In this document: piece after piece, positions 52,871 through 62,055 of the stretch | Numbering within the stretch: position 1 is the stretch's first letter | Layout: each line of letters starts with the position of its first letter | NCBI GenBank assembly: GCA_001725325.1 | Contig: MEFY01000001.1 | Location: 434,001 to 498,000, forward strand | From: Leifsonia sp. SCN 70-46 | Lineage (GTDB): Bacteria; Actinomycetota; Actinomycetes; Actinomycetales; Microbacteriaceae | Direction of reading: 5' to 3' | Length of the DNA: 64,000 bases | The notes under the pieces: model-generated | Told to the model about the DNA's origin: nothing | Databases searched by the model: none | Seen by the model: the letters and a program-made list of their open reading frames with translations, nothing else | Translations under genes and position numbers: made by a program

Positions 52871-54133
52871 ATGAGCCTCCCACCGTCCCGCTTGCCCCAG
52901 CCCCTCCACGAGATCTGGCGCGGGGTGCACCACACCCTCCAACACGACACCGTCGGGGGTGCACTCCTTCTGACAGCGACCGTACTGGCTCTCATCCTCG
53001 CGAACTCGCCGGCTGCGGCGTTCTACGAGAGTGTGCGCGACGCCAGGTTCGGCCCCGAGGCGCTCCACCTCGACCTCTCGGTCGGGCAGTGGGCGGCCGA
53101 CGGGCTGCTGGCCATCTTCTTCTTCGTCGTGGGGCTCGAGCTGAAGGAGGAGTTCGTCGTCGGCAAGCTGCGCAACCCGCGCACCGCCATCCTGCCGATC
53201 ACCGCAGCCGTGGGAGGTGTCGCCGTACCCGCGCTCATCTACACGCTCGTCACCCTGCAGTCCGGCGAGGGTGCCCTGCGCGGGTGGGCGATCCCCGCTG
53301 CGACGGACATCGCCTTCGCGGTCGCCGTGCTCGCAGTGGTGGGCCGCAACCTGCCGCCCGCACTGCGCACCTTCCTCCTCACCCTGGCCGTGGTCGACGA
53401 CCTCTTGGCGATCTCCATCATCGCGATCTTCTACACGGACGACCTGCAATGGGTGCCGCTCGCCCTCGCCCTCGTGCCGATCGGCGTGTTCGCCCTCGCC
53501 GTGCGCCGGGGCATCCGGAGCTTCTGGATCCTCTTCCCGCTCGGCGTGATCACGTGGGGGCTCGTGCACGCGTCCGGCATCCATGCCACGGTCGCGGGAG
53601 TCGTCCTCGGCTTCATGGTGCCCGTTGTCGCGACCACGAGGGCACGCGTGAAGGTGGGGGCCGATGCCGAGGGCGCACCGATCTACGAGGGCTTCGCCGC
53701 CCACTTCGCCGACCGCTGGAACTCGGTGTCGACCGCGGTCGCCGTGCCGGTCTTCGCGTTCTTCTCGGCGGGGGTCGCGATCGGCGGGCTGGCGGGGCTG
53801 GGCGAGTCGTTCCGCGACCCCATCGCCCTGGGGATCATCGGGGGCCTCGTCATCGGCAAGGTCGTCGGCATCACCGGAACCACGTTCCTCGTGACGCGCC
53901 TGCCGGGACTCGCACTCGACCCGGCGCTGAAATGGATCGACATGGTGGGGATGGCCTTCATCGCCGGGGTCGGTTTCACCGTGTCGCTGCTGGTGGGAGA
54001 GCTCTCGTTCGGTGCCGGAAGCGAATCGGACGGCCACGTCAAGGTGGGCGTCCTGGCCGGGTCGCTCATCGCCGCGACGATCGGAGCGACCATTCTCAGC
54101 GTGCGGAACCGAAGCTACCGTCGGCTCGCCTGA
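52871..54133 (+). CDS. nhaA: Na+/H+ antiporter NhaA
   Basis: The 420-residue protein has the NhaA features: [29 protein letters not shown], and the ion-binding double aspartate in [10 protein letters not shown], with about twelve membrane helices. It exports sodium or lithium in exchange for protons. GGAAGG lies six bases before ATG 52871. Its last 100 bases are partly duplicated 1.35 kb downstream. Confidence 0.93.
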
Positions 54134-54211
54134 GGCTTCACACCCACTTCGGTGTCGCGAGGAGCAGCGGCCGCCGTGCCACGGATCTGGACTCGGCGAC
54201 CGACTGCAGTC
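54037..54211 (+). repeat. direct repeat, left copy (nhaA 3' end)
   Basis: This copy covers the last codons of nhaA and the following 78 bases. The right copy at 55391-55521 has the same order of segments with small deletions; 47 bases (54161-54207 and 55471-55517) are identical. Confidence 0.85.
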
Positions 54212-55262
54212 ACGCGGGGGTCGCCGCAGCGGCCCCCTCGAGCGGAGCGCGCTCGAACTCGAACACCAGCCGCGCGGGGATCTTGCCGGAGAGCACCTGC
54301 TCGATAGACGCATTGACGTCCTCGATGTGGCGGCTCTCGCCGATCACGCGGGTCCTGCCGAGCGCGTGAAGGGCGAAGACCTCCGCGAGGTCCTGACGGG
54401 TCCCGACGATCGACCCGATGATGGAGATGCCCTTGAGCACCGTCTCGAAGATGGGGATGTTCATCTCTCCGGCGGCCGGCAGTGCCACGCAGATGAGGCG
54501 GCCACCGCGGCGGAGTGAGGCGAACGCCTGCTCGAAGACGGAGGAGCTCGCGGCGAGTACGACGGCGACGTCGGCGCCGCCGAGTGCCTGGATGGCGGTT
54601 GCCGGGTCGGTCTCGCTCGCGTTGACCGTGTGCGCGGCGCCAAGCTCCCGGGCGAGCTCGAGCTTCGCCGCCTCGACGTCCACGGCGACGACCGTGCCGC
54701 CCATGATCCGGGCGTACTGCACGGCGAGATGGCCGAGGCCCCCGATGCCGAACACCGCTACCCGCTCCATCGGACGGACATTCGCCACCTTGAGGGCCTT
54801 GTAGGTGGTGACCCCGGCACACGTCAGCGGTGCGGCGTCGAAGGCGCTGACGCCGGCAGGGACCGGCACCACGAACTTGGCCGACGCGACCGCGTACTCC
54901 GCGAACGCCCCGTCGACGGAGTAGCCGCTGTTGCGCTGCGACTCGCAGAGAGTCTCACGCCCGTCGATGCAGTACTGGCACTCGCCGCAGGCGTATCCGA
55001 GCCACGCGATCGCCACGCGCTCCCCGATTGCTCGCGACGTGACGCCGTCGCCGACGGCTTCGACGATTCCCACACCCTCATGGCCAGGGACGAACGGGAG
55101 GCCGGGCTTCACCGGCCAGTCGCCGTGCGCGGCATGGATGTCGGTGTGGCACAGGCCGCTCGCCTCCATGCGCACCAACACTTCGCCCGCGGCAGGGACC
55201 GGCATGGCGCGGTCCTCCACGACGAGAGGAAGATCGAAGCTCGATACGACTGCAGCTCTCAT
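54210..55262 (-). CDS. adhP: zinc-dependent alcohol dehydrogenase, AdhP-like
   Basis: The 350-residue enzyme matches AdhP-type alcohol dehydrogenases along its length: catalytic zinc region GLCHTDIHAAHGDW and PGHEGVGIVE, structural zinc cysteines in CGECQYCIDGRETLC, and NAD motif GIGGLGHLAVQYA. It oxidises ethanol and similar alcohols or reduces aldehydes. ATG 55262 follows GGAAGG and fits the family's usual start; a longer frame to 55292 is less likely. It lies between two copies of the nhaA-end repeat. Confidence 0.92.
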   Translation of the reverse strand: MRAAVVSSFDLPLVVEDRAMPVPAAGEVLVRMEASGLCHTDIHAAHGDWPVKPGLPFVPGHEGVGIVEAVGDGVTSRAIGERVAIAWLGYACGECQYCIDGRETLCESQRNSGYSVDGAFAEYAVASAKFVVPVPAGVSAFDAAPLTCAGVTTYKALKVANVRPMERVAVFGIGGLGHLAVQYARIMGGTVVAVDVEAAKLELARELGAAHTVNASETDPATAIQALGGADVAVVLAASSSVFEQAFASLRRGGRLICVALPAAGEMNIPIFETVLKGISIIGSIVGTRQDLAEVFALHALGRTRVIGESRHIEDVNASIEQVLSGKIPARLVFEFERAPLEGAAAATPA

Positions 55263-55390
55263 GATTCGACGCCCTTCCATGGGCCCGCACACTTTGTGGG
55301 CTCACAGAGGCACTCTGCTCTCCGTCACGAGCTTGGGGCAGGGTCTAAGGTCCCGTCACCGAACGTCCGACGCCGCGAACCGGGAGGCTG

Positions 55391-55521
55391 CGTCAAGGTG
55401 GGTGTTCTGGCCGGGTCGTTCGCCGCGACCATTCTCAGCGTGCGGAACCGCAGCTACGGGTGCCCCGCGCGGAGCAGCGGCCGCCGTGCCACGGATCTGG
55501 ACTCGGCGACCGACTGCTGTC
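55391..55521 (+). repeat. direct repeat, right copy (truncated nhaA 3' end)
   Basis: The segment repeats the nhaA tail and its downstream sequence with several short deletions relative to 54037-54211. It does not code for a functional piece of NhaA. Confidence 0.85.
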
Positions 55522-55654
55522 AAGCAGGGCCGCCGCGATCCGGACATGATTCCCTAGATCGAATCCTCCCAGCGCGCGGGCCAAACCCGTCGCCCTTGCG
55601 CGACGCTGGCCGATGTGCACTGGGGGCACCGGGCGGGCCGGCCGCACCGCGTCG

Positions 55655-55676
55655 TGCCCCCGACAGGGACTCGAAC
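55655..55676 (-). mobile_element. tRNA 3'-end fragment, probable attachment-site remnant
   Basis: Read on the minus strand the 22 bases are a T-loop GTTCGAGT, a T-stem half CCCTG and a G-rich acceptor strand ending GGGGGCA. The paired 5' half of the T-stem and the rest of a tRNA are missing, so this is only a 3' end. Such fragments mark one end of elements integrated into tRNA genes. By orientation, the element would extend to higher coordinates, with the complete tRNA at its far end. Confidence 0.55.
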
Positions 55677-55780
55677 TCGTATCTACGACTGTTTGGGGTG
55701 CATTGAACTCACAAGAACCCCGGAAAATCAACGGTCTTGGGGTGGTGTGATCACCCCACATCACATGGTTTTTCGTACGG

Positions 55781-55800
55781 ATGTGGGCAAAATGTGGGCA
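55781..55800 (+). repeat. direct repeat, candidate integrase arm site
   Basis: ATGTGGGCA occurs twice, separated by AA. A related inverted motif (CCCCACAT) lies at 55753-55761. Short repeats of this kind flank the core of phage and ICE attachment sites. Confidence 0.4.
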
Positions 55801-55904
55801 CGGGTTGGGACCGCCTTCGCGAATTATCTTTAGCATCAGCTCGTGGACACCTGACGAATAGTCGGGCCGGACGGATAGCTTTGTCCCGACAGAATTGAGC
55901 GAAA

Positions 55905-58121
55905 TTGGCACGTCCGTATAGAGCGCTATTCAGAGGTCGAGTTTCGATCCGCCCGTGGCGCGTAGGCGCTCTCGTGAACGTGCGATCGGCTACGGAAGTC
56001 GAAGAAGCCATTCGATCGCTCACCAATGTGTGGGGTGGCGTTTTTCTACCGATATTGGACATTGATGCTCCACTCTCGGAGCTTCGCTTAACAGCCCGCA
56101 TGCTCGATTTAGACAGTTTGTTCGCAGAGTCACCGGCTGGTGACTTGGAAGACCTGCTTCGGATCCCCGGGTACATGTGGCGAGGTCGCGGGGACTGGGG
56201 TCCGTTCGCGGACGACGAGGCCGGATTTCGCAAAGGCCTACTTGATGTCACCGCGATAGCCAATACCAGTATCGAAAGGCGGGCGCGACGTGTACCTCGC
56301 GAGAAGACGCTGGCGTGGCTCGCTTTCGCAGGATGGGGAGCGGACCTTGAGCATGAATCTCGTCCCATCGAACTAACCCGAGCCGGCCTTGTCTCGCGAC
56401 TGTCATACGTGGATCCGATCCCTCAAGGGCTATTTGTAATTCGCCCAGAATCCGCTGCGGACGTGGCATGGTTCTGGACCTGCAGGTCGCTGGGCGGCGA
56501 GTGCTATCCGTTGGAAGTCGGCCAGTCAGTTCTAAACGACGTGGTGTTCGGCGAGTTGGACAGCAAAGGAATCCCCAGCGGCCCTACGCCCGCGCCGAAT
56601 GTCCCTGGCCCGCCGAGATTGGATGTGTGGGGGTGGGACGATCTGACTTTGGATCAGAAGTCGCAAATTGACACTTGGGTCGTCGGGCAAGGAGGGACCG
56701 TACGAGGTCTGGGTCGAGAACATGCAATGGCGGGGGCGTGGTTTCCCGGATTTGAGAAGGTCGCATCAAGGAGCTTTCGCAAGGAAGCGGATCCAGATTC
56801 CCTCCGGATAAGCGTCGAGCTTCCTGCCTTTCCCTTCAAGGATCTTGGGTTCCTGCCGGGCATCGTCGCAGCTGAGATTGATTTTCACGAGGCTAGCGGC
56901 CTCGATCCGAGGTTGACCGCGGCCGTTCCGCCGCACCGACGCCATGCGAAGCTTATTGAAGGCGCGCTCGGCAGTGCCGTGGATCACGTTCGGGTGTCCG
57001 CGGTTGGACCAGTGCTTGGCGTGCAAGCCGGTGCCGACGAGGTAACCGTTCCTCTGGCCAGCAATCTCGATGTCATGCGACTTCTATTCGACGATCCCCC
57101 AGTGCGAACGAGCCAATCCGACGACGGGAAGTTCCAGAGCCGAGTCGCCGAAATGTTCGGGGGAGGGATGAGCGGCGCACTAACGCAACCCGGCATACGA
57201 GCAGCCATAGAGCGCGTGGCTGATAAGGGTGCAGGCGTGACACTAAGCGAATTGACGAACGTATTTGCGAAGGCGCGAGGTGACTGGCCCGATCGGATCT
57301 ATCGAAGCCGCCTGTCACAAGCGGATTACGACCGAGCAGAAACTCGTAGGCTCCTCAATTCAGGTCTCCTAATCCCCATGCTCGACCTACAGTGCACTTC
57401 TTGCCGGGTTGTCAGCAAGGTTCATCCAAATGACTTAAACACCTCTGTTCGATGCGAGTTCTGCAACGAAGACTTCAACTTGGCAATCGCATTGGCGTTG
57501 GCAAAACCGACTTGGCGTTATCGACTTGCGGCACACCTTCCGTCCGAGAAGATTCGGGCGATGCTCCCCGCAGTTGCCGCTCTTTCAGTTCTGTCAGCAA
57601 TGCACGTGGTTGAGGGGCCGCCCATGAGCCACGTGTTGGGATTGGAGGTGACTATTCCGAATCGCAACCCCGTCGAAGTTGATGTTGCGGCCATCCTCCA
57701 CGAAGACGATTGGACTGTGGTTCTCGGCGAAGTAAAAAGTCACCATCCGATCGACCAGAATGACGTGGAAAATTTAGCCCACCTTCAGGATCTGCTGCTG
57801 GAAAAGGAAACCCTCTCCGTCGTTATGTTCGCAACCCTCAAGCTCGAATTCAACGAGGATGAGCGGAATCTATTTCGAACCCTGATCGAGCAAACGACAA
57901 GATCGGTCGAACGAAATGGAAGCAGGCTGCCAATCATGCCTCTCCTGTTCACCCAGCACGAACTGTCGGTGCCGTGGGGTGACGAAGCGCATCCATGGAG
58001 ATGGCGGAAGGCGGGTCAGGGTGGGATCTTTGGAACGGCCATCGAATCCTGCAGAAAAAACTTGGGACTAATCGACTTCAAGATGTCCAAGGGCGGAACT
58101 GAATACGTCTGGTCAGAGTAG
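55905..58121 (+). CDS. 738-residue protein with zinc ribbon and PD-(D/E)XK-like nuclease site
   Basis: This long low-GC gene has no family I recognise. The first about 490 residues are a mixed alpha/beta region with unknown fold. A zinc ribbon follows (Cys 497, 500, 517, 520 in CTSC and CEFC), then a C-terminal region with EVDVAAIL, a spacer, and VVLGEVKS: Asp 593, Glu 609 and Lys 611 fit the PD-(D/E)XK nuclease core. It starts at TTG 55905 with a weak ribosome-binding site. AT-rich codons including TTA and its position behind the att-like site indicate horizontal transfer. A solitary anti-phage or restriction role is a reasonable hypothesis. Confidence 0.75.
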   Translation: MARPYRALFRGRVSIRPWRVGALVNVRSATEVEEAIRSLTNVWGGVFLPILDIDAPLSELRLTARMLDLDSLFAESPAGDLEDLLRIPGYMWRGRGDWGPFADDEAGFRKGLLDVTAIANTSIERRARRVPREKTLAWLAFAGWGADLEHESRPIELTRAGLVSRLSYVDPIPQGLFVIRPESAADVAWFWTCRSLGGECYPLEVGQSVLNDVVFGELDSKGIPSGPTPAPNVPGPPRLDVWGWDDLTLDQKSQIDTWVVGQGGTVRGLGREHAMAGAWFPGFEKVASRSFRKEADPDSLRISVELPAFPFKDLGFLPGIVAAEIDFHEASGLDPRLTAAVPPHRRHAKLIEGALGSAVDHVRVSAVGPVLGVQAGADEVTVPLASNLDVMRLLFDDPPVRTSQSDDGKFQSRVAEMFGGGMSGALTQPGIRAAIERVADKGAGVTLSELTNVFAKARGDWPDRIYRSRLSQADYDRAETRRLLNSGLLIPMLDLQCTSCRVVSKVHPNDLNTSVRCEFCNEDFNLAIALALAKPTWRYRLAAHLPSEKIRAMLPAVAALSVLSAMHVVEGPPMSHVLGLEVTIPNRNPVEVDVAAILHEDDWTVVLGEVKSHHPIDQNDVENLAHLQDLLLEKETLSVVMFATLKLEFNEDERNLFRTLIEQTTRSVERNGSRLPIMPLLFTQHELSVPWGDEAHPWRWRKAGQGGIFGTAIESCRKNLGLIDFKMSKGGTEYVWSE

Positions 58122-58239
58122 TTTGACCCTCCCTCCAGTCATGCAAATTGCCGTAGTTGCGCCATTCACGCTGTGCGGCGAGAACTGGCACGCCCTGCCT
58201 TCGCGAGCATGCCGCATCTCCACTTGGCCCTAAGGGCCA

Positions 58240-58432
58240 CGGTGATCGGAGCGCATCCCTCGGCGGCGATGATCACGGTGATCGCCCCCGCGTCCAACCT
58301 CGAGGTCGTCATCCCAACCAAATCACCCGAGTCGGCGCAGGAGCTCGAGGACGCCGCCCCACCTGCTCTGCCCCTACTCCAACGCCACGCGAGGCAATAT
58401 CGACGTGACCATCGTCGTCTCCGACGACTGAC
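58240..58432 (+). pseudogene. ohr (organic hydroperoxide resistance) remnant, truncated and frameshifted
   Basis: The frame ending near 58360 reads ASNLEVVIPTKSPESAQELEDAA; after removing one C from a run of four at about 58358-58361 it continues HLLCPYSNATRGNIDVTIVV to a stop at 58430-58432. CPYSNATRGN is the C-terminal active cysteine motif of Ohr/OsmC peroxidases. The N-terminal half, including the first catalytic cysteine, is not recognisable. It lies right after the low-GC gene, so insertion probably truncated it. The rest of 58122-58481 holds nothing I can identify. Confidence 0.7.
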
Positions 58433-58481
58433 TTCTGGGCGGTAGGGGGCGTCCGCAGAATTTCCTAGCGGCGCGGACCCC

Positions 58482-59333
58482 TTATTGAGCTGCCCTCGGA
58501 GTGCGCGATCTCCAGAGGAACGTCGCAAGGACAGGGATCGTGTATAGCACCCAGGCGATGGCCTGTGCCCACGTTGTCTCCGGCGTGAAGTTGAGCGTGC
58601 CACGCAGGAGGGTGCCATACCAACTGGTTGGCGGGATCACCGCGGTGACGTCGAACGCGAGGGATTGCAGACCCGGGATGAGGCCGGCCTCCTGCAAGTC
58701 GTGCACACCGTATGCCAGCACCCCGCCCGCAATGATGATGAGCAGCACGCCCGAATAGGTGAAGAACTTCGAGAGGTTGATACGCAGAAGGCCCCGGTAA
58801 ATGAGGAAGCCGAGCACTACTGCGGACAAAATCCCGAGACCTGCACCTAGGAGAGGAACAGTTGTCGAGCCCGTCGACTGCACCGCCGTCCAGAGGAAGA
58901 GGGCCGTCTCGATCCCCTCGCGGCCGACCGCGAGGAAAGCGACGAGGACGAGCCCCCATGCTGCGCCGTCGAGGTGCTTGTCGATGTCGCCGTGGAGCTG
59001 GCCCTTCAGATCGCGTGCGGTGCGGAGCATCCAGAAGACCATCCACGTCACGAAGCCGGTGGCGATGATGGAGAGAGAGCCACCGATGATCTCCTGCGCC
59101 TGGAAGCTGAGTCCGTAGGTGCCGAAGGTCAGGAGCGCACCGATTCCCAGCGCGAGCGCTGTCGCGAGGCCGACGCCCAGCCAGAGCTTGGCGAGGGAGT
59201 CCCGGCGGTCGATCTTGACGACGTAAGCGATGAGGATTGTAACGACAAGGGCCGCTTCGAGCCCCTCGCGCAATCCGATGAGGTAGTTGGCAAGCACAGG
59301 GTTACGTAAGTCGATCGGAGCGCGATCGTCCAT
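58482..59333 (-). CDS. FTR1-family high-affinity iron permease (EfeU-like)
   Basis: The protein (283 residues from ATG 59333) has seven helices and both iron-binding RExxE motifs: GLREGLEAALVV near the N terminus and VGREGIETALFLW in the middle. It takes up ferric iron released by a partner oxidase or peroxidase. The usual partners EfeO and EfeB are not encoded nearby. A TTG start at 59351 is possible, but GAGACT lies six bases before ATG 59333, which suits a leaderless start. Confidence 0.88.
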   Translation of the reverse strand: MDDRAPIDLRNPVLANYLIGLREGLEAALVVTILIAYVVKIDRRDSLAKLWLGVGLATALALGIGALLTFGTYGLSFQAQEIIGGSLSIIATGFVTWMVFWMLRTARDLKGQLHGDIDKHLDGAAWGLVLVAFLAVGREGIETALFLWTAVQSTGSTTVPLLGAGLGILSAVVLGFLIYRGLLRINLSKFFTYSGVLLIIIAGGVLAYGVHDLQEAGLIPGLQSLAFDVTAVIPPTSWYGTLLRGTLNFTPETTWAQAIAWVLYTIPVLATFLWRSRTPRAAQ

Positions 59334-59406
59334 GAGAGAAGTCTCAGGCAAATACCGAAGGCGCTACCTACGCACATTGGGCGCCAGGCCGACAGTTGGT
59401 TCAGGA

Positions 59407-60795: not shown

Positions 60796-61727
60796 TCTTT
60801 CGACGGGCGAAGCTGCGCCTCGCGCTCTCCTACGCAGCCGTGCAGCTCGCTCTGTTCGCGGCCTTCGGTTTCGGCATCTACTACTACGTGACAACAGCCT
60901 TCGACTACGACGTCGCTGAGGGCGACTCGGCCGTCGCCACCGCTGAGGCCGGATTCGCGACCCTTCGAAACGGGATCGTCATCACCTATCTGGCCCTCGT
61001 GGTGCTCATACCCGTGACGAGCTACGCGCTCGCATCACTGGCGATGCGGCCGATCCTCGCGAGCTTCGAGGCACAGCAGCGGTTCATCGACGACGCGTCC
61101 CACGAGTTCCGCACACCCCTGACCGCGCTTCAAGCTCAGCTCGAACTAGGACTGAGCCGACAACGGTCCACACCCGAGTACCGCACGATCCTCGGACACT
61201 CCTTGCACTCCACCGCGCAGCTCAGCGAGACTCTGGATGGTCTCCTCCTGCTGTCCCGCGGAGCGCATGACGCCAACGTCGCGATGCGCGAGACGGAGGT
61301 TGGCTCGATCGTCGCAGATGCCGTCGACCAGCTCGCTCCCGCCGATGCGGCGCGAGTGCTTCAACCGAATCCACCGGAACTTCGCATCTCAGCTGCGCCA
61401 TCGATGCTCACACGCGCGATCGTGAACCTGCTCACCAACGCACTGCGGTACTCCACCGCCGGATCTCTGGTGTCGATAAGCGCCTCCAGGCACGGTGGCA
61501 TGGTGCGGATCAGCGTCGAAGATCACGGCACTGGCATGTCTCGCGAAGATCAGGATCGGGCATTCGACAGGTTCTGGCGGGGCGACGACTCCCGCTCGAG
61601 CGAGGGCCGGGGCCTCGGTCTTTCCATCGTGAAGGAGATCGTCGGCCTGCACGGTGGGCGGGTCGAACTCGAGTCTGAGCTGGGAGTCGGCACAACGGCA
61701 TCCGTGGAGCTTCCGCTCTCACGGTGA
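60792..61727 (+). CDS. sensor histidine kinase
   Basis: The 311-residue kinase has two membrane helices with a short loop of about 30 residues between them, then H-box DDASHEFRTPLTAL, N-box IVNLLTNALRYS, and G-boxes EDHGTGM and GRGLGLSIV. The small outer loop suggests membrane-internal or small-ligand sensing rather than a large sensor domain. It is cotranslated with the response regulator. Confidence 0.92.
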   Translation: MIFRRAKLRLALSYAAVQLALFAAFGFGIYYYVTTAFDYDVAEGDSAVATAEAGFATLRNGIVITYLALVVLIPVTSYALASLAMRPILASFEAQQRFIDDASHEFRTPLTALQAQLELGLSRQRSTPEYRTILGHSLHSTAQLSETLDGLLLLSRGAHDANVAMRETEVGSIVADAVDQLAPADAARVLQPNPPELRISAAPSMLTRAIVNLLTNALRYSTAGSLVSISASRHGGMVRISVEDHGTGMSREDQDRAFDRFWRGDDSRSSEGRGLGLSIVKEIVGLHGGRVELESELGVGTTASVELPLSR

Positions 61728-61744
61728 TCCCACGAAGGGCTTTC

Positions 61745-61750
61745 TAGCGT
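61745..61750 (+). promoter_or_regulatory. -10 element of the acidic repeat gene
   Basis: TAGCGT, giving a leader of about 38 bases with a GGGAGAAG ribosome-binding site before ATG 61795. It lies 17 bases after the kinase stop, so the gene can be expressed alone. Confidence 0.4.
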
Positions 61751-61794
61751 TGTTGACATGGCGGTATTCGATCGCCGGAACAGGGAGAAGACAC

Positions 61795-62055
61795 ATGAGC
61801 AAGCTCAAGACCGCGCTGGCAACCTCGGCTGTCATCGTGCTCTCGGTGGTGGGAGGCGGGCTGGTCATGGCCCTGCCCGCTCAGGCCGCGACGAAGGCTA
61901 TCGTCCAGATCACCGGTGTCGACGATGGCACCAACGACGGCGAGACCAACGACGACGGTGTGGAAGATGGCATCAACGACGGCGAGACGGCCGACGACCA
62001 GGGTGTCGAGGACGGCACCAACGACGGCGAGACGAACGACGACGCCGGCAACTAG
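61795..62055 (+). CDS. small secreted acidic triple-repeat protein
   Basis: The 86-residue product has a Sec signal peptide (residues 1 to about 32, ending in PAQAAT) and a mature part made of three tandem units of 14-15 residues (44-57, 58-72, 73-86), each with DG-T/I-NDGET-N/A-DD. There are no basic residues in this region, and the Asp/Asn/Gly spacing recalls calcium-binding loops. It is encoded between two two-component systems and near iron and divalent cation carriers, so a metal-binding or metal-sensing role outside the cell is plausible. No family is recognised. Confidence 0.75.
   Translation: MSKLKTALATSAVIVLSVVGGGLVMALPAQAATKAIVQITGVDDGTNDGETNDDGVEDGINDGETADDQGVEDGTNDGETNDDAGN
61921..62052 (+). 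repeat. three tandem repeats of 42-45 bp
   Basis: In-frame units in the acidic protein gene; the second unit has one additional codon. Confidence 0.75.

Follow-up and report, generated by a model that had tools for sequence, protein, structure and literature searches.

PMC9704534 describes Can2/Card1 as a homodimer of CARF-PD-D/ExK chains that, once activated by cyclic tetraadenylate (cOA4), leads either to phage clearance or to dormancy. PDC-S01, in the account given in PMC12988326, joins an ATPase to a PD-(D/E)-X-K member, and the CoCoNuT CnuC and McrC-type proteins, as presented in PMC11090510, combine a PD-(D/E)xK domain with a zinc ribbon, carry DUF2357, and work with a McrB-like GTPase. 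To these we compare a gene in a 64,000-nucleotide stretch of Leifsonia sp. SCN 70-46 (contig MEFY01000001.1, positions 434,001 to 498,000; the whole stretch is called the window here, and its genome G000). The gene is real and patchily distributed; two putative metal sites form the core of its family, whose members occur on plasmids, close to attachment sites at tRNA genes, and, in 6 of 16 cases, near defense genes. Judging from sequence comparisons, we lean toward reading its product as a horizontally moved single-gene antiviral protein that combines a sensor with a nuclease.

The family comprises 16 long members and two fragments and shows a patchy, actinobacterial distribution. The long members are those of the window (P0001), G147 (P0002), G848 (P0003), three plasmids, G242, G056, G162, G198, G078, G010, G052, G250, G695 (locus L111), and G1271; the fragments are those of G803 and G199, the latter with a stop. 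Similarity beyond chance was seen with a homologue from a different family within the class, which aligns at 29% identity across 421 residues (E 2.5e-43). A search with the window protein as a single query found it in two of the 394 genomes searched in the class and in one of 398 in the family, itself counted in both, and profile searches gave 12 of 296 class genomes (one row being a stop-bearing fragment and another probably a chance match), 3 of 396 phylum genomes, 1 of 166 genomes in the order of G147, and 3 of 27 genus genomes. The plasmid members, from Kitasatospora, Streptomyces, and Rhodococcus, were found with the G848 protein alone, and tblastn of the plasmid records with P0001 and P0002 gave no match. 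No match for three family queries was found in 50,697 phage records, nor was a relative seen in eight scans of viral contigs, which use short exact patterns that distant members may escape; the scan of genome contigs returned one relative, the G803 fragment (WHSV01000125.1).

Results revealed that the residues expected of the two metal sites are the most conserved part of the C-terminal region. The original prediction, made by a model from the letters of the window, had placed CxxC pairs at 497/500 and 517/520 and putative catalytic residues at E591, D593, E609, and K611, and all of these positions, like the limits of the open reading frame (ORF), were confirmed. In a 14-member alignment, S405, G408, C497, C500, C517, C520, L541, E591, D593, and E609 were invariant, with K611 kept in 13 members and lacking in P0003. 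A separate alignment of the C-terminal part of 14 members had C497, C500, C517, C520, L541, E591, D593, and E609 as its sole invariant columns, and this set persisted among nine members after removal of those more than 50% identical. The four cysteines together with E, D, and E account for seven of the eight invariant C-terminal columns out of 160 gapless ones (hypergeometric 1.7e-11, a rough value given related sequences, some of them found by profile). Several members were retrieved by profiles of earlier members, which biases toward shared motifs; no such profile bias applies to the G147 member (single-sequence search) or to the plasmid members, and both CxxC...CxxC and ExD...ExK are present in the two later genus members (L111 and L112). 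Being invariant across the alignments, including the nine members less than 50% identical, the two putative metal sites define the family. This conservation bears on the idea of a catalytically decayed nuclease, or a nonantiviral stress or DNA repair nuclease, that hitchhikes in islands. Such an origin would fit the lysine missing from P0003, the broken copies in G803 and G199, and the confirmation of defense neighbors for only 6 of 16 members, but we regard it as very improbable, as the C-terminal positions that stay invariant in nine nonredundant members are few and include the putative catalytic residues, and the patchy distribution is unlike that of core repair genes.

The zinc ribbon that had been predicted was borne out by the two CxxC knuckles with a short loop between them, whose four cysteines are kept in 14 of 14 members, and by the ribbon-plus-nuclease profile, whose best matches in the Protein Data Bank (PDB) were the knuckles of Sec24, rubredoxin, Elf1, and thioredoxin-2, with Sec24 and rubredoxin on top (best E 0.0022). 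For the nuclease, the conserved acidic residue and (D/E)xK of a PD-(D/E)XK motif are present, their placement on adjacent strands coming from a weak model. The nuclease-only profile matched four PDB sequences at E ≤ 10, none individually significant, and those in register over ExD...ExK were VC1899 (E 1), UPF0102 RPA0323 (E 1), and a CARF-domain dual-activated nuclease (E 1.7), all of which we take to be PD-(D/E)XK proteins; the profile of ribbon plus nuclease also listed Can2 (E 0.26). Full-length phmmer against the PDB gave one chance-level row only. A single-sequence structure model, of low confidence and too poor to prove the fold, had the order helix-strand-strand-strand(ExD)-strand(ExK)-helix-strand, and no row stood out in a VIA-align comparison. 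Thus, of the PD-(D/E)XK site first proposed, conservation and the kind of PDB match spoke in its favor, whereas each match was weak and the model of low confidence; the C-terminal part is probably a PD-(D/E)XK-like nuclease domain.

Comparison with the described systems showed partial likeness in each case. Like Can2/Card1, the window protein pairs an N-terminal region of sensor size with a PD-(D/E)XK part at the C terminus that carries ExD...ExK, the nuclease parts being in register at nonsignificant scores. Unlike Can2/Card1, it has a zinc ribbon before the nuclease, matches no CARF domain by Pfam or by the N-terminal PDB profile, has no type III CRISPR genes seen adjoining its gene, and is not matched by Pfam Card1_endonuc (PF09002) at E ≤ 1; its N terminus is also, by our assumption of CARF size, longer than a CARF domain. 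Card1_endonuc was found in 0 of 60 phylum genomes. Can2/Card1 is the closest working analogue, although membership fails at the Pfam level. The likeness to PDC-S01 is a single weak PADLOC match of P0001 that is limited to the PD-(D/E)XK part (residues 590 to 642, E 0.0078, profile 347 to 397 of 422), and Pfam shows no ATPase family in P0001, whereas PDC-S01 itself has an ATPase domain. With UPF0102-type proteins, presumably also PD-(D/E)XK, the strand pair EIDLVA...EVK aligns exactly, but the PDB chain has 134 residues and neither the ribbon nor the N-terminal part. The CoCoNuT CnuC and McrC-type proteins share the presence of a PD-(D/E)xK domain and a zinc ribbon in one protein; however, the window protein is without DUF2357, and a McrB-like GTPase neither adjoins its gene (by eye) nor recurs at the loci of other members.

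The N-terminal 490 residues had been described as having no recognizable fold, and likewise the N-terminal profile had no meaningful match in the PDB and no CARF domain among its matches. In this part R363 and P383 are invariant, and R19, W43, G44, P49, D70, R126, P224, and P318 are more than 90% conserved (12 rows). A crude strand-helix-strand pattern around RVxxV...WGG...DPDxVV and a later GDxxxDFALA hint at a Rossmann-like arrangement. It is conceivable, if rather doubtful, that the first 400 residues form an infection sensor of a new kind, perhaps built as a tandem Rossmann-like module and joined via the zinc ribbon to a Card1-like nuclease. If true, the fusion of sensor, ribbon, and nuclease would be a stand-alone, one-protein counterpart of CARF/SAVED-nuclease immunity that requires no adjacent CRISPR or nucleotidyltransferase gene. 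The layout is given in Table 1.

Table 1. Features of the gene and of the attachment-site scar (window coordinates)
Feature	Position	Strand	Basis
Candidate sensor-nuclease gene, 738 aa	55905..58121	+	ORF listing and homologue comparison
N-terminal part, residues 1-404, no recognized fold, loosely conserved	55905..57116	+	Alignment, N-terminal profile vs PDB
Linking part, residues 405-496; S405 and G408 invariant, GG at 419-420	57117..57392	+	Alignment
Zinc ribbon CxxC-x16-CxxC, residues 497-520	57393..57464	+	C-terminal alignment, profile vs PDB
PD-(D/E)XK-like nuclease core, residues 545-650	57537..57854	+	Alignment, profile vs PDB, low-confidence model
Core codons	E591 57675-57677; D593 57681-57683; E609 57729-57731; K611 57735-57737	+	
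Copy of tRNA-Leu(TAA) 3' end plus about 12 nt beyond, attachment-site scar	55642..55676	-	94% over 35 nt to G000:C1:501432-501465
Two TGTGGGCA direct repeats, putatively integrase arm-site-like	55782..55800	+	Just inside the tRNA-Leu copy

As an antiviral sensor-nuclease, the protein would be held inactive by its N-terminal 400 residues until a sign of infection is sensed, which may be a small-molecule signal or a phage component. The C-terminal PD-(D/E)XK domain would then cut nucleic acid, with the metal held by D593 and E609 together with K611, and the zinc ribbon before it may help to bind nucleic acid or hold the domain in place. Once released, the nuclease would degrade either the DNA of the phage or nucleic acid of the host cell itself, so that phage multiplication stops. 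Should the N terminus prove to be a sensor, this would be a new type of trigger for nuclease-based immunity.

Among the neighboring ORFs that were scanned, profile-confirmed defense genes were found within about 10 kb of 6 of the 16 members. The G147 gene has a type I hsdR-like gene on one side and a GmrSD_N gene on the other, and Cas3 lies 2.4 kb from the G250 gene (L070) with Csd1 and Cas1 beyond (type I-C CRISPR-Cas). TIR_2 genes are near those of G242, G056, and G052 (L062, L063, and L069), and the Streptomyces longwoodensis gene (L045) has an HsdM-type methylase nearby and a further gene with AAA/NACHT matches under the cutoff. A TIR gene within 10 kb was present in 3 of 12 genomes versus 0.34 expected (P 0.0027), where TIR was picked after the loci had been seen and the 12 genomes were chosen for holding members or a fragment, two later genus members being left out. 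At most 4 of 14 loci shared a neighbor family, and the only one to reach that number was a mobile-element gene family, which we take to be DUF2637-like. Because no partner gene recurs, the family gene works by itself, to judge from gene order, in agreement with the solitary gene that had been proposed. A fixed housekeeping context of the homologues is contradicted by their patchy distribution and differing contexts. The proposed defense role gained indirect support from the neighbors and from mobility, and as to function it stays a prediction.

The solitary gene, the PD-(D/E)XK-like core, and the zinc ribbon would also suit a lone modification-dependent or sequence-specific restriction enzyme (type II/IV style), in which the N terminus reads DNA and the nuclease cuts without signaling. 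Such an enzyme would fit the methylase genes that lie near three relatives (L045; L070; and G147, where the gene is hsdM-like from its resemblance to that of L045). However, no methylase adjoins the window gene (by eye), Pfam shows no recognized base-reading domain, and hhalign to Mrr, McrC, and HsdR was without significant match: HsdR and McrC were in register but at Prob <1%, Mrr was out of register, and the HsdM negative control scored alike, so that this comparison carries little weight. We give the restriction enzyme a minor, though real, chance.

The ORFs adjacent to the window gene are, by eye, alcohol dehydrogenase-like and FTR1 permease-like. At the Kitasatospora locus (L044:7281-12542), the family gene is followed by Mu/TnsB-like transposase and ATP-binding genes near a linear-plasmid end, a pair unseen at the other loci.

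The window gene also carries signs of horizontal movement. The attachment-site-like fragment noted in the original prediction proved real, as a 35-nt copy of the tRNA-Leu(TAA) 3' end at 94% identity, 228 bp upstream of the gene start; the intact tRNA gene lies on the same contig (G000:C1:501444-501518), 11.8 kb beyond the copy. Between copy and gene, the TGTGGGCA repeat stretch may be integrase arm-site-like. Moreover, window 55709-55802 is 74% identical to G000:C2:1294534-1294627, the flank of a TIR_2 gene. Two places in this genome share the attachment flank but carry different genes beside it (the window gene and the TIR gene), a pattern that points to the attachment end as a slot for defense cargo. 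Elsewhere in the same genome, a 19-mer shared with this flank falls within the final 81 bases of an ORF that adjoins tRNA-Lys and by eye resembles a tyrosine integrase. At L042:3460-4786 (G000:C2, about 1294460-1295790), a tRNA 3'-end-like stretch (by eye) is followed by the same flank and the TIR_2 gene, and the integrase-like gene at tRNA-Lys (L113:2157-3425, by eye) is a possible relative of the element behind the window scar.

In the tRNA-Leu stretches of ten congeners (12.6 to 19.9 kb each), the window protein had no tblastn match. G1265 has CDF, membrane, RR2, and HK2 homologues at the same tRNA-Leu, where the window gene is absent, and no integrase gene was seen (by eye) in the window interval, so the 11.8 kb may not form a single element. 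Congener G1269 has an exact 23-nt copy of the tRNA-Leu 3' end (L099:16375-16397) at a distance of about 13 kb from the tRNA, and its tRNA-Leu may also be an attachment site. Among the relatives, G695 (L111) shows 44 nt of a tRNA-Pro 150 bp past the family gene, G147 has a Phage_integrase gene at 6.5 kb and tRNA-Leu at 8.7 kb, G848 has tRNA-Arg at 0.5 kb, and G1271 has tRNA-Pro at 2.5 kb; a second tRNA fragment was not found around the G147 or G848 genes. The broken G803 copy (L004/L043, uncultured actinobacterium) is followed by tyrosine-integrase-like pieces (by eye) in another frame.

Such settings raise the alternative of a maintenance or transposition factor of the carrier mobile elements, a nuclease active in integration, transfer, or stability and not in antiviral defense. 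It is consistent with the location of members near tRNA genes or fragments (window, L111, L037, L038, and L112), with the DUF2637-like gene family near 4 of 14 loci, and with the TnsB-like and ATP-binding genes beside one member. On the other hand, members sit in varied surroundings, from tRNA sites and linear plasmids to conjugative-type elements and a CRISPR-Cas neighborhood, no transposition partner recurs, and there was no match in phage records or, with short exact patterns, in viral contigs; we consider this role unlikely.

Composition sets the gene apart from the window, with a guanine-plus-cytosine (GC) content of 57.3% versus 69.5% and values of 65/46/60% by codon position. Five of 1,066 60-mers in the window had ≤48% GC, four of these at 55.6 to 58.15 kb. 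The two lines sampled in the original prediction have 48.3% and 41.7% GC, as it had counted, but its term AT-rich holds only in a relative sense; the TTA codons that it reported number four. The ORF starts with TTG and ends with TAG, and this start is reasonable because the IRPxR stretch common to the window protein and its relatives (residues 15 to 19) forces the protein start upstream of residue 15. A promoter scan of 55600-58500, which says little for an actinobacterium, found no sigma-70-like promoter.

In the searched libraries the family has no name. No family of Pfam, NCBIfam, or PHROGs matched P0001 at E ≤ 1. Pfam gave nothing for P0002 at E ≤ 0.1 or for the L044-L046 members at E ≤ 0.05, and for P0003 three rows under the cutoff, two of them zinc-ribbon models. 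PADLOC gave nothing for P0002 at E ≤ 0.1, for P0003 at E ≤ 1, or for the L044, L045, and L046 members at E ≤ 0.01. A description was likewise absent from the literature by text searches (among the matches listed, subscription papers being mostly uncovered) and by accession search. What emerges is a nuclease-like family whose domain order is clear, whose residues for mutation can be named exactly, and whose distribution among actinobacteria is patchy.

N termini are uncertain for the G848 ORF, whose first 41 to 66 residues correspond to a different gene, for the S. longwoodensis gene (late start), and for the G052 ORF (extra N-terminal stretch). Plasmid rows H4-H7 were rejected as members, as their matches are confined to the first 41 to 66 residues of the P0003 ORF and their annotation is 3-keto-5-aminohexanoate cleavage protein; G243/L058 (E 3.9e-4, probably chance) was rejected too, as was G199/L054 as a full member. 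The family counts leave out four partial plasmid rows, H11-H14.

Elsewhere in the window, the 3' end of an nhaA-like gene and the sequence following it (54021-54219) recur at 55375-55529, 1.3 kb on, as three blocks of 81 to 94% identity that bracket the alcohol dehydrogenase-like gene; next to the attachment-site copy, this makes a second scar of insertion or duplication. Two FTR1-type iron-permease-like genes, at window 58482-59351 and G000:C1:410871-411683, are 57% identical, and the copy beside the window gene has matches of 68 to 72% in 11 congeners. In addition, a small secreted-looking ORF at 61654-62055, flanked by two two-component systems, ends in acidic DGxNDGETxDD repeats.
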